Shown: piece after piece, positions 6,671-22,466 of the stretch
Layout of the letters: each line of letters opens with the position of its first letter
Numbering within the stretch: position 1 is the stretch's first letter
Origin: Candidatus Nitrosopumilus sp.
Lineage (GTDB): Archaea; Thermoproteota; Nitrososphaeria; Nitrososphaerales; Nitrosopumilaceae
Assembly: GCA_013215285.1 (NCBI GenBank)
Contig: JABSRD010000009.1
Coordinates: forward strand, 1 to 33,720
DNA length: 33,720 bases
Direction of reading: 5' to 3'
Program-made: the position numbers and the translations under genes
The notes under the pieces: model-generated
Databases searched by the model: none
The model's input: only the letters and a program-made list of their open reading frames with translations
Told to the model about the DNA's origin: nothing

Positions 6671-7078
6671 TTAAATTTTTAATTTATTATAAAGTTCTTC
6701 AGTTTCAGATTCAGATATTTTCAATGTATTGTTAAACATACTGTGAATAGTACCTGCAGAATCAGACATACTTCTAGGAACAAGATGTACATGTACATGA
6801 GGAACTTCTTGTCCAGCATCTTTTCCATTATGTATTGCAACTAAACTTGCACCAGTCATAAAGTCAACTTTAGAAATCATCAAATGAACAAGCGAAAATA
6901 AATCATTATTTTCATCACTGCTCATATCTTGAATTTTTTGATGATGTTTCTTTGGGATTACAAGTGTATGTCCCTTTGCAAGAGGAAATGCATCTAAAAA
7001 GGAAATAGAATGTAAAGTTTCTTTAAGAATTTTTGCAGGAATATCACCCATAATTATTTTACAAAAAATGCAATCCAT
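6671..7078 (-). CDS. HIT-family nucleotide hydrolase/transferase
   Basis: 135-aa histidine-triad protein. The signature HVHVHLVP is at 94-101 with the catalytic His at 96. N-terminal CIFC (C3, C6) and downstream H45 are typical of zinc-binding HIT proteins of the Hint/Fhit class. These hydrolyse AMP-conjugates such as AMP-lysine or dinucleoside polyphosphates; the exact substrate is not readable from sequence. Full length for the family. It is convergent with the DnaJ-ferredoxin gene, the two stops being 2 nt apart. Confidence 0.92.
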   Translation of the reverse strand: MDCIFCKIIMGDIPAKILKETLHSISFLDAFPLAKGHTLVIPKKHHQKIQDMSSDENNDLFSLVHLMISKVDFMTGASLVAIHNGKDAGQEVPHVHVHLVPRSMSDSAGTIHSMFNNTLKISESETEELYNKLKI

Positions 7079-18058: not shown

Positions 18059-18604
18059 ATGAAAATAATGAAAAGTGAATTAATTGAAAATAGACTAATT
18101 GTTTGGGATATTGAAGATTCACGTAAGCTTTTCAGCCAAGGATATTATGGAAAACCAATAGGTATGCCAAAACCAAAAATTGAAGAAATTGACGTTCCAT
18201 TAATTTTAGATTTAATTGAAGGATTGTATCTTTTGGAAAATAAAAAAATTACGATTACTAAATTAAAACAAAAAGTAACAGTTGAACATATGGTAGAAAT
18301 TTGTAAAAAAGAAGTTCATGAATTTAATAAAAAATATTTAGTTTACAAAAATTTTAGAGATAAAGGATACATCATTAATCCTGGAATAAAATTTGGTTGT
18401 GATTTTGCAGTATATGAAAAAGGTCCAGGGATTGATCATGCACCGTTTTTAATTCAAGTATATGCCAGAACTGAATCAATTACATCAACAGGAATTGTTC
18501 TTGCAGGACGACTTGCAACTACAGTTAGAAAACAATTCATCTTGGCAATTCCAAAAGGTAAGGATAAAGTAGATTTTATTGCATTAGATTGGTGGAAAGC
18601 CTAA
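18059..18604 (+). CDS. endA: tRNA-splicing endonuclease, catalytic subunit
   Basis: 181 aa. It cleaves bulge-helix-bulge junctions to remove archaeal tRNA introns and helps mature rRNA precursors. The C-terminal nuclease domain contains IKFGCDFAVYEKGPGIDHAPFLIQVYAR and the strand-helix ending TTVRKQFILAI. The catalytic triad is Y119, H127 and K158; the His-Lys spacing of 31 matches known EndA. The N-terminal domain (ENRLIVWDIEDSRKLFSQGYYGKP) is also typical. Size fits the one-domain catalytic subunit of a multimeric enzyme. An alternative ATG is at 18068. It overlaps the convergent gene by 4 nt. Confidence 0.93.
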   Translation: MKIMKSELIENRLIVWDIEDSRKLFSQGYYGKPIGMPKPKIEEIDVPLILDLIEGLYLLENKKITITKLKQKVTVEHMVEICKKEVHEFNKKYLVYKNFRDKGYIINPGIKFGCDFAVYEKGPGIDHAPFLIQVYARTESITSTGIVLAGRLATTVRKQFILAIPKGKDKVDFIALDWWKA

Positions 18605-18981
18605 ACTGCCTTTATGTGGCCAGCTATTCTATCATAAATTTCAAAAAGTTCTTTGGAAATTCCAAAAGCAAGATGGTTATCCCATTTACTTCTAATTCTA
18701 ACCACATTATCAGTTGGTTCTACATAGATAGTAGCATTTTTGACTGATTGTTTTGCAATCATATCATTAAGTTCATTATCATTATTTAGTATGGCAGCCA
18801 AACTGCCAGAACCATTCCATGTTACTTTAACAACAGTTTTTGCACCAAAATGTCCTTTAGTATCTAGTTGAGTTTTTGCAAGGTAATTTGCAACTTTATT
18901 GCCAACATTGGCTTTCACAATAAAATGTGCCTGAAATCTATCTAGAGCACCCCATGGAAGTGGATTTGGATCTTGCATCAT
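18601..18981 (-). CDS. unknown protein, 126 aa
   Basis: MMQDPNPLPWGALDRFQAHFIVKANVGNKVANYLAKTQ... with alternating strands and helices, no signal peptide, no Cys. It reads like a compact alpha/beta cytosolic domain (KTVVKVTWNGSGSLAAIL; ATIYVEPTDNVVRIRSKW; FGISKELFEIYDRIAGHI). I do not recognise the family. Its start overlaps the stop of the upstream gene (TAATG), so it is translationally coupled to it. The 3' end overlaps the last 4 nt of convergent endA. Confidence 0.65.
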   Translation of the reverse strand: MMQDPNPLPWGALDRFQAHFIVKANVGNKVANYLAKTQLDTKGHFGAKTVVKVTWNGSGSLAAILNNDNELNDMIAKQSVKNATIYVEPTDNVVRIRSKWDNHLAFGISKELFEIYDRIAGHIKAV

Positions 18982-19313: not shown

Positions 19314-21083
19314 ATGCTAAAGTTTCAAGGAAAAACTGCTCTCATTACAGGTAGTGGAACAGGAATTGGGAAAGCAATTGCAACAAAATTTGTTGAAAAG
19401 GGAGCAAGTGTGATTATCCTTGGAAGAAGAAAAGAACCATTGGATGAAGCTGCAAAAGGATTAGAAGGAATTATTTCACAAAACAATAGCGGGGCATCAG
19501 TTAAAATTTTTGCAGGAGTAGACGTTGCAGATGAATCAGCAATGACTGGAATGTTTGATTCACTCAAAAATGAAAATATCAATGTAGATTATGTCATTAA
19601 CAATGCAGGAGTTTCAGGACCTGTTACATGTTTTGCAAATGCACCATTAGATGAATTCAAAAGCACTATTGGGATTCATCTTACAGGGACTTTTTGGGGT
19701 TCAGTTCAAGCACTAAAAGTTATGAAAGAAGGAGGGAAAATCATTACAATTTCAACATTTTTCACAGAAGAAAGACCATTAGAACAAAGACCCTATAGAT
19801 TTAGAAGTCCATATACTGCAGCTCAAGGTGCAAAAAACAGACTGGCAGAAGCAATGTCATGGGAATTAACAGATAAAGGAATCATATCTATTACAACAAA
19901 CCCAGGACCCGTACATTCTGATCGAATTTACAAAACAGTTTATCCAAAAGCTGCATCTGAATTCATGAGAGTAAGTGGGTTTGAAGATCTAAGCCCAGTT
20001 GAAGTTGAAGAAGCAAGCAAAGAATTGTTAGAATGTATATTGTCAGATGGGGTAGACGCAGATGGAATTGCAAAAGTTGCTGCAAAACTAGCTAACGGAA
20101 AGGATGTTACTAAAGTAACTGAGACATTTACAAAATTATTAGAACAAATTCGAACCCTTGCAGGAAAAATTCAAAACAATACATCACATATGATTGCAAA
20201 TAAAGAATTCTTATCACAAGGACAAGTTGCAGAATCAGTTCTCAACTTGTGTGATGATGAAATAGCAAAAATTCTAAATGGCAAGGTTGTTCCAGGGGAT
20301 AGAGTATTTTATCCTGTAAGACCACATATTGGAACTGTAGCACCAGGAGTCCACCAACCAGACTTTGGAGGAAAAGTAATTGTGTTTACTATTGATGCAA
20401 CTGATAAAGCAGATGCAGAAAGAGTAGAATTTTTGGCACAACATGTTGAAAAGAATGGTGGAAGGGCAGCATGTTTCATTTCAGAATCAACACCAAAGGA
20501 ACTTCAGGAATACATTAGTGGTAAATGCCATACACACATAATGGATATCAAGAATCCTGAAGAGGTAGAAAAATGGCTCAATACTGCCAAAACAAATCAT
20601 GGTGAAGTTTTAGCAGTAATTCATGTTACTGGAAAATTGCCAGAAATCTCAAAATTAACTGAATTATCAAGGGCAGGATGGGAAGAACTTACGGAAAAAT
20701 TCATCACAACTCCAGCAAATGTAGCACAAAGAGCACTTGAACATTTTGTACCAGGAGGAGGTAAAGATCCTCGTTTGTACAAAGATGCAAAAGGTGCAAT
20801 TATGATTATTGGTCCAGACTTACCAACTGGAAGAAAAGTATCAGGAATCCAAAGAGCTCAAGTAGAAGTTTTCAGAGGTGCGTTAAGACCATTTACAACC
20901 ACAGTTAACCAAGAACTAAGTGATGTTCTAAAGTCAAAAATTAGAATGTTTACAATATTTCCAGGGACAGTAACAGGAGCAGAACCAAGTAATCAAAGAA
21001 TTGCAGAGGCAATTAATTTCCTGGTGTCAGATAGTGCAGCTTCATCGGCAGAAGTTATCTTCTGTGTTGATGAATCAAGGTAA
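19314..21083 (+). CDS. tandem short-chain dehydrogenase/reductase (half-malonyl-CoA-reductase-like)
   Basis: 589 aa with two Rossmann units. The N-terminal SDR (1-255) has TGSGTGIG (12-19), NNAG (96-99), Ser147 and the active-site region SPYTAAQGAK. Y167 is in place, but position 171, where YxxxK needs Lys, is Gln (K174 is nearby). A helical insert (225-300) is followed by a degenerate SDR (350-589, GGKVIVFTIDATD... and an ending like SDR C-termini) without YxxxK. The layout and phrases such as NPGPVHSDRI resemble, from memory, one half of the bacterial two-part malonyl-CoA reductase (FPGPIESDRI). The substrate is probably a CoA or semialdehyde compound. A hotdog-fold gene follows after 2 nt. 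The chemistry is inferred. Confidence 0.8.
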   Translation: MLKFQGKTALITGSGTGIGKAIATKFVEKGASVIILGRRKEPLDEAAKGLEGIISQNNSGASVKIFAGVDVADESAMTGMFDSLKNENINVDYVINNAGVSGPVTCFANAPLDEFKSTIGIHLTGTFWGSVQALKVMKEGGKIITISTFFTEERPLEQRPYRFRSPYTAAQGAKNRLAEAMSWELTDKGIISITTNPGPVHSDRIYKTVYPKAASEFMRVSGFEDLSPVEVEEASKELLECILSDGVDADGIAKVAAKLANGKDVTKVTETFTKLLEQIRTLAGKIQNNTSHMIANKEFLSQGQVAESVLNLCDDEIAKILNGKVVPGDRVFYPVRPHIGTVAPGVHQPDFGGKVIVFTIDATDKADAERVEFLAQHVEKNGGRAACFISESTPKELQEYISGKCHTHIMDIKNPEEVEKWLNTAKTNHGEVLAVIHVTGKLPEISKLTELSRAGWEELTEKFITTPANVAQRALEHFVPGGGKDPRLYKDAKGAIMIIGPDLPTGRKVSGIQRAQVEVFRGALRPFTTTVNQELSDVLKSKIRMFTIFPGTVTGAEPSNQRIAEAINFLVSDSAASSAEVIFCVDESR

Positions 21084-21085
21084 GA

Positions 21086-21538
21086 ATGAAAAAATTTTCA
21101 GAGTTCAAAATTGGAGATACATTTTTTTCAATATGCAGTATTTCAGATAAAGAACTAGACGAATATCTTAAATTCTCCAGAGTTAGAAATGCATTTTTAG
21201 AAAATAAACAAAAAGGAGAACGTCAATTAATTGCAGGAAGGGCAATTCTATCAAGAATGGAAGGTGAATTTACAAGACTTAGTCAAATTTATGGTAATCA
21301 TATTATTTTCGTTGGAACTGATGGGGACTCCAAATGGGAAAACAGAACTACAAGATTTGTCAATCCACTATATACGGATCAAGTATTAAAATTGAAATTT
21401 ACGGTTTCTCACAAAGAAGATATCGATGATGAATTTGGAAAAATTGTAATTGATTATGAGGGAACAACACAGGAGGGGGAAATAATAGTAATTTCAAAAA
21501 ACAATATTTACAGAATTAAAAAAGAACCTCCACGTTAA
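21086..21538 (+). CDS. MaoC-like hotdog-fold protein
   Basis: 150 aa. Start FKIGDTFFSICSISDKELDEYLKFS matches the opening strand-helix of MaoC/(R)-hydratase-type hotdog proteins, and VNPLYTDQVLKLKFTVSHKEDIDDEFGKIVIDYEGTTQEGEIIVISKNNIYRI matches the closing strands. The hydratase Asp/His dyad (D-x4-H in the hotdog helix) is not visible: that region reads SRVRNAFLENKQKGERQLIAGRAIL. It may bind acyl-CoA without classic hydratase chemistry. The ATG lies 2 nt after the SDR stop, so the two are almost certainly coupled and part of one acyl-CoA pathway. Confidence 0.75.
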   Translation: MKKFSEFKIGDTFFSICSISDKELDEYLKFSRVRNAFLENKQKGERQLIAGRAILSRMEGEFTRLSQIYGNHIIFVGTDGDSKWENRTTRFVNPLYTDQVLKLKFTVSHKEDIDDEFGKIVIDYEGTTQEGEIIVISKNNIYRIKKEPPR

Positions 21539-21652: not shown

Positions 21653-22426
21653 CTAAAATCCAAGGAGAGAAAAGTCATCTGAAATTGAATCAAAAAAAAG
21701 TTTTGCTGCTGCAATTAAGATTAACACAGTTACTAAAATCTGCAAATACCGTTCTTTGATTTCAAGAGATAATCTTGCACCAACTAATCCACCAAAAAAA
21801 GAACCAATTGCCAAAAATCCTGCATGAGTAAAATCAGGATGCCCCAACATACTATGAGCTATCACTCCAGATAATGAGGAGAATAATAAAATCAATTGTG
21901 AAGTTGGGGCAGCTTTTTTCATTGCCATTCCCATTCCAATTGCCATTAATGGTACAAAGATAATTCCACCACCAATTCCAAAAAATGCAGATATAATTCC
22001 AGCAAAGAAACTAGCACCAACTGCAAAAATCATCATTTGTGTGGATAGTGTTTTTTCTTTAGTCTCTATTTTTTTTCTTAGAAAAATATAAGCTGCAGAT
22101 ATGATTAGTACTAACCCAAATAAAATTTTAAAAAATCCAGGGGCTACATCAGTGGAAATGATTGCACCAAGAATAGTTCCAGGTATTGTAAGTAATCCAA
22201 GTTTTACACCTAATGAAAATTCAATTCTCTTTTGTTTGGAATACGAAATAGTTGATGCGATAGCATTACTTAATGCAGCAAAAAGACTGTTGCTTGCAGC
22301 AGCAGTAGGTGAAAATCCCAAAAAGGTCAATACAGGAACTACAATAATGCCACCTCCAAGACCTACCATTGAACCCAAAATTCCTGCAACAAATCCTAAA
22401 AGAATTAACCATAATTGATCAATCAT
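21653..22426 (-). CDS. TauE/SafE-family membrane exporter
   Basis: About 257 aa, eight predicted transmembrane spans, typical of the TauE/SafE (formerly DUF81) family of sulfite, sulfonate or organic-acid anion permeases. The duplicated signature is visible: GFVAGILGSMVGLGGGIIVVPVLTFLG in the N-terminal half and GIISAFFGIGGGIIFVPLMAIGMGM in the C-terminal half. ATG 22426 is preferred over TTG 22438 because TTATATAC (about 22454-22461) lies at leaderless distance from it. Substrate unknown; taurine or sulfite are common for relatives. Convergent with the hotdog gene. Confidence 0.9.
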   Translation of the reverse strand: MIDQLWLILLGFVAGILGSMVGLGGGIIVVPVLTFLGFSPTAAASNSLFAALSNAIASTISYSKQKRIEFSLGVKLGLLTIPGTILGAIISTDVAPGFFKILFGLVLIISAAYIFLRKKIETKEKTLSTQMMIFAVGASFFAGIISAFFGIGGGIIFVPLMAIGMGMAMKKAAPTSQLILLFSSLSGVIAHSMLGHPDFTHAGFLAIGSFFGGLVGARLSLEIKERYLQILVTVLILIAAAKLFFDSISDDFSLLGF

Positions 22427-22466
22427 TGTAATTGTCAATCAAAGAATTTTGTTGTATATAATTAGA

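Follow-up and report, generated by a model that had tools for sequence, protein, structure and literature searches.

A conserved tandem SDR of ammonia-oxidizing archaea with the architecture of one half of bacterial malonyl-CoA reductase: a candidate for the second step of the carbon-fixation cycle

Ammonia-oxidizing archaea (AOA) carry a conserved, AOA-specific tandem SDR whose build resembles that of either half of bacterial malonyl-CoA reductase (MCR) and whose catalytic Lys position is altered. The copy described here, a protein of 589 amino acids, is encoded in the window (the whole 33,720-nucleotide stretch of DNA that was analysed), which belongs to a 1.66-Mb AOA genome near Nitrosopumilus. 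It is best explained as a free-standing protein related to a single half of the tandem-SDR enzyme of bacteria, and it is probably the missing NADPH-dependent malonyl-CoA reductase of AOA, a candidate whose substrate and chemistry we infer. The 3HP/4HB cycle of AOA has been described as the aerobic pathway that fixes CO2 most efficiently, and its share of carbon fixation worldwide may be about 1% (PMC11494057). AOA are abundant microbes of ocean and soil, the gene for the second step of their cycle has been reported as missing, and the candidate makes this gap directly testable. If correct, the assignment would supply a pathway marker that present marker sets lack, would mean that one protein architecture serves malonyl-CoA reduction in both AOA and Chloroflexi and another in Sulfolobales, and would show that an SDR site can be catalytic when its customary Lys is missing.

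Architecture and active site of the 589-residue protein

The tandem-SDR gene runs from an ATG start on the forward strand (19314..21083) and is followed, after a gap of 2 nt, by a gene for a 150-residue hotdog protein on the same strand (21086..21538). Both reading frames and their spacing were recovered as given in the preliminary description, and the layout that it had proposed for the larger protein, an N-terminal SDR, a helical insert and a degenerate second SDR, was borne out by Pfam and by an AlphaFold2 model. Residues 1-205 (19314..19928, forward strand) form a classical catalytic SDR domain (adh_short, E 3e-38) with TGSGTGIG, an NADPH-type GRR that contains R38, D70 and NNAG; Pfam detected no family above cut-off in the rest of this protein or in the 150-residue protein. 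The model, which was built on 36 homologues (pLDDT 78.7, pTM 0.81), comprises a first Rossmann SDR, a helical region at about residues 203-321 and a second Rossmann-like domain from about 354 to 589; the active-site loop 150-167 is ill-defined in it (pLDDT < 50). The helical insert proper (residues ~206-300; 19929..20213, forward strand) sits where MCR-C has its extra domain, and the second, non-catalytic SDR-like domain (residues ~350-589; 20361..21080, forward strand), degenerate and with no Pfam match of its own, was delimited by the model and by alignments. At 589 residues the protein amounts to one half, and the four fused SDR domains of bifunctional MCR (K14468) are absent. Full-length tandem-SDR copies occur once per genome. 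The architecture is not a product of chance, since an alignment of 125 AOA homologues spanning about 44-88% identity shows it throughout.

Kinship to the MCR halves, proposed earlier with an unrelated SDR group as the alternative, held up in structural comparisons. In a Foldseek search of the PDB, MCR took ranks 1-24 and 26 (E 1.7e-21 to 6e-14); rank 25 was 2et6, a tandem (3R)-hydroxyacyl-CoA dehydrogenase (E 6e-15), and single SDRs followed from 5e-11. VIA-align gave the MCR halves Z scores of 24.5-28.6 across 482-514 residues, compared with 23.3 across 239 residues for the top single SDR, and the scores of the N and C halves tied. Profile alignment with the Chloroflexus MCR sequence, which is identical to PDB 8hjw, was collinear with both domains of MCR-N (4-518, E 1e-22) and with most of MCR-C (6-463, E 2e-20). 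When the catalytic domain was compared alone and pairwise, MCR scored 57-61 bits and glucose dehydrogenase 71 bits. By single-domain score, therefore, MCR is no closer than other SDRs, and it is the architecture, the signature residues and the trees that carry the case. In the catalytic-domain tree, the AOA proteins and MCR were split from the control SDRs with support of 100/93, and the split kept 90-97 SH-aLRT when SDR1 or SDR3 (either MCR half) or the long-branch rows were removed; because of the long branches in the tree, we regard this grouping as supportive rather than decisive. A tblastn search of a plasmid collection with an MCR-C fragment and the window protein detected no MCR relatives at the limits used.

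Residues have been assigned in Roseiflexus MCR for both the N half, which reduces the semialdehyde (T165, Y172, R175, Y178 and K182), and the C half, which reduces malonyl-CoA (S731, Y743, R746, Y749 and K753); R785 and R799 lie near CoA or substrate, and changing the MCR-C Lys to Ala abolishes activity (PMC10470521). T148, Y161, R164, Y167 and R204 of the AOA protein match T165, Y172, R175, Y178 and R215 of MCR-N, and S731, Y743, R746, Y749 and R785 of MCR-C. T148, the Y161-x2-R164-x2-Y167 element and R204 are invariant in the alignment of 125 AOA sequences, and the full signature was found in none of 33 control SDRs of the same phylum. The first four of these residues lie, together with Q171 and K174, in the active-site segment (19755..19835, forward strand). 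R204, the equivalent of Cfx R773 and Rfx R785, lies in the NPGPVHSDRI...FMR segment (19899..19970, forward strand), whose motif NPGPVHSDRI was found, as had been described, at residues 196-205. The NADPH-type adenosine contacts R38 and D70 (Rfx R616 and D651) are likewise invariant in the 125 sequences. The SDR catalytic Lys of YxxxK (K753 in Rfx, K741 in Cfx), in contrast, is replaced by Gln171 in 125 of 125 sequences, and Lys174, three residues further on, is equally invariant. Aligned without gaps, the stretch between Y167 and PGP is exactly as long as in MCR-N, and the residue that falls on the Lys position is then Q171 rather than K174. The MCR active-site signature is thus present, but the preliminary description had overlooked the loss of the catalytic Lys; since that position is an invariant Gln, the AOA proteins are better described as a new MCR-like branch than as proven MCRs.

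Several features bear on which half the protein resembles. The T148-Y161 spacing is 13, compared with 12 in MCR-C and 7 in MCR-N. The insert after R204 measures 92-112 residues in AOA (about 95-97 in the window protein), compared with 150 in MCR-C and 43 in MCR-N, and it sits at the extra domain of MCR-C, although it is shorter. An F-x-R that ends 15 residues past R204, counted as a feature of the CoA half, brings R219 close to Rfx R798/R799. Loop spacing and the long insert together make the AOA protein lean towards the CoA-reducing half.

Distribution, locus and the adjoining hotdog protein

Among 131 genomes of the order, 61 carry the tandem SDR, 61 carry archaeal AmoA and 60 carry both; neither is present in 69, so that the two agree in 60 of the 62 genomes with either. 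AmoA was taken as the marker in place of HpaB_N, which was dropped as a cycle marker because it is too unspecific and occurs in non-AOA families as well. The single AmoA-bearing genome without the tandem SDR is 67% complete. One genome (G475; 200 contigs, 95% completeness) has the tandem SDR with no amoA detected, which could reflect an assembly gap or a non-oxidizer that retains the tandem-SDR gene. The gene occurs in four AOA families, f1, f2, f3 and f67, the first three of which we take to be Nitrosopumilaceae, Nitrosocaldaceae and Nitrososphaeraceae. No tandem SDR was found in the other sampled genomes of the phylum, where the next matches are single SDRs scoring at most 95 bits, compared with at least 935. 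Because AOA form one clade, this distribution amounts to about one evolutionary event, that is, retention by all rather than repeated gain.

A TauE/SafE transporter gene (21653..22438, reverse strand), separate from the enzyme, is convergent with the tandem-SDR gene. The same convergent arrangement occurs in three AOA families, two of them represented by one locus each, and TauE/SafE neighbours lie elsewhere at L115:5149-5916, L119:5043-5987 and L129:7866-8612. The shared neighbour suggests that the tandem-SDR locus is old and vertically inherited; the transporter might export a sulfonate or an organic acid connected with the enzyme. No HP/HB cycle genes were seen near the tandem-SDR gene in the flanks within the window or in families f2 and f3, where the flanking genes include those for DNA ligase, tRNA endonuclease, purE/purK, SRP54 and homoserine dehydrogenase; this counts against a role in the cycle. 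A 126-residue ORF (18601-18981, reverse strand) with no Pfam match separates the tandem-SDR gene from that for tRNA endonuclease. Promoter and terminator scans gave nothing above chance, and a repeat scan found short, imperfect pairs only.

The 150-residue protein was modelled as a MaoC/R-hydratase hotdog fold. V33 and L38, within F-S-R-V-R-N-A-F-L, stand at the Asp-x4-His positions of the hydratases in a register set by eye, in agreement with the earlier statement that the hydratase dyad is missing. The hotdog gene adjoins the tandem SDR in 67 of the 83 f1-type loci that have enough downstream sequence, and roughly one in five Nitrosopumilaceae-type loci has lost it or holds it in decayed form. 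In several Nitrosopumilus-type genomes an internal deletion has left only its two ends: at L080:6776-6930 the remnant consists of 28 codons from the start plus the final codons, and L063 and L090 show such decay after position 6773. No hotdog gene was detected in family f2; in f3, homologues lie away from the tandem-SDR gene and were not adjacent in the loci examined. Several of the f3 homologues (in G209, G443, G473, G463, G386 and G475) contain stops or are fragments, as if being lost. The tandem SDR is always kept where the hotdog gene is lost, decayed or non-adjacent. The pairing noted earlier therefore stands for the window, with its 2-nt coupling, but is not universal. An obligate complex of the two proteins was considered and ruled out, as many relatives have lost the hotdog gene or carry it with an internal deletion, which argues that the hotdog protein is an accessory, dispensable partner.

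The gap in the cycle and the competing readings

Malonyl-CoA, acryloyl-CoA, succinyl-CoA and succinic semialdehyde reductase activities have all been measured in N. maritimus, with their genes reported as unidentified (PMC6038301), and the malonyl-CoA reductase gene is likewise given as unidentified elsewhere (PMC6964070). A 2026 curated marker set includes malonyl-CoA reductase among the markers of the Sulfolobales variant but has none for the AOA variant; no later paper naming the AOA gene was found in a search that took in few subscription journals or preprints. In N. maritimus, malonic semialdehyde reductase is a different, already characterised protein, as reported in a paper that cites Otte et al. 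2015. The window genome carries asd and argC in one copy each, and only these two genes have Semialdhyde_dhC; it also has two aldehyde dehydrogenases, one of them SSADH-like. With a single asd and a single argC, no spare paralogue stands out as an MCR of the Sulfolobales type, although the Asd might conceivably be bifunctional.

If the 589-residue protein does reduce malonyl-CoA, NADPH would be held in the N-terminal SDR, with R38 and D70 gripping its adenosine end, and Y161, R164 and R204 would hold the malonyl group and CoA. Hydride would pass to the thioester carbonyl, T148 and Y167 would stabilise and protonate the oxygen, and CoA would leave; Q171/K174 may stand in for the usual SDR Lys. 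The CoA site would be closed by the helical insert together with the second SDR-like domain, and the malonate semialdehyde would then be reduced by the separate malonic semialdehyde reductase. On balance, and with a little less assurance than for the assignment itself, we favour the wider proposal that the malonyl-CoA reductase of AOA is one MCR-like half, which their ancestor acquired a single time by recruitment or inheritance. Its Tyr-x3-Gln/Lys(+3) site would then be one that structurally known MCRs lack, and the task of the bacterial N half would fall to an unrelated semialdehyde reductase.

The preliminary description had hedged between MCR and a different acyl-CoA reaction. Fold, signature and trees are MCR-like, but the choice stays ambiguous because the catalytic Lys is replaced by Gln. 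After malonyl-CoA, the substrate reading placed next is succinyl-CoA or a dual specificity, the protein being then a CoA-linked reductase of the same cycle that acts on succinyl-CoA or promiscuously on both; we consider this unlikely. In Sulfolobales, one enzyme reduces both malonyl-CoA and succinyl-CoA. Fold and chemistry would be the same and sequence cannot tell substrate length, and the succinyl-CoA reductase gene is among those missing in N. maritimus (PMC6038301); yet the characterised relatives all act on malonyl-CoA or malonate semialdehyde, Y-x2-R-x2-Y is kept exactly, and the SSADH-like aldehyde dehydrogenase could serve succinyl-CoA. Slightly less likely still is an aldehyde reductase like the MCR N half, converting malonate or succinic semialdehyde to the alcohol, or an enzyme of an unrelated carbonyl substrate. 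SDRI and the overall length do resemble MCR-N, whose structural scores tie with those of MCR-C, and the succinic semialdehyde reductase gene is also reported missing (PMC6038301), but the spacing in the loop and the length of the insert point to the CoA half instead, and the malonic semialdehyde step is assigned to another protein in the citation of Otte et al. 2015.

It is improbable that the protein is the missing acryloyl-CoA reductase, a reading suggested by the FabI-type Y-x6-K enoyl-reductase spacing of Y167-x6-K174. The Tyr and Lys at this spacing are invariant, the adjoining hotdog protein is hydratase-like in fold, and the acryloyl-CoA reductase gene is also listed as unidentified (PMC6038301); we nevertheless set this reading low because the ungapped register, with its MCR-N length, places Q171 at the Lys position, and the genome encodes MDR proteins with crotonyl-/acryloyl-CoA reductase similarity. 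Such proteins, with similarity below the curated cut-off, lie at G000:C1:66370-66774, 325841-326236 and 706057-706464, and are possible candidates for the missing acryloyl-CoA reductase. Least probable of all is an SDR that has lost catalysis or serves a structural role, for instance in regulation or as a scaffold: the loss of the SDR Lys is invariant, but so, or nearly so, are the other nucleotide- and substrate-contact residues compared across the 125 sequences, which would be unusual for a dead site.

Comparison with known systems

The closest likeness is to the bifunctional MCR of Chloroflexus, Roseiflexus and Porphyrobacter (K14468; 8hjw, 8hi4, 6k8s and 6k8v), with which the AOA protein shares the layout of a catalytic and a non-catalytic SDR domain, the T/S-Y-R-Y site, the Arg of (D/E)R(I/L), the NADP-contact Arg and Asp, and the position of the insert. 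It differs in being archaeal and a single unfused half, with about 17-20% identity, a shorter insert, and Gln for Lys with a Lys three residues on. The Sulfolobales malonyl-CoA/succinyl-CoA reductase (K15017) catalyses the reaction proposed for the AOA candidate in a cycle of the same name, but it is a semialdehyde-dehydrogenase (Asd-like) protein unrelated to SDR, whereas the AOA protein is an SDR by Pfam and fold and falls outside the semialdehyde dehydrogenase family. Peroxisomal MFE-2 (2et6) has two tandem SDR domains and CoA substrates, as in our reading of the AOA protein; however, both of its SDR domains are catalytic, and it is a much poorer fit (TM 0.53, rmsd 16.6 over the full alignment). 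Finally, the 150-residue partner has the hotdog fold of the MaoC and PhaJ (R)-hydratases (4ffu, 1q6w and 5cpg), but unlike these enzymes, which have a catalytic Asp and His, it carries neither residue.
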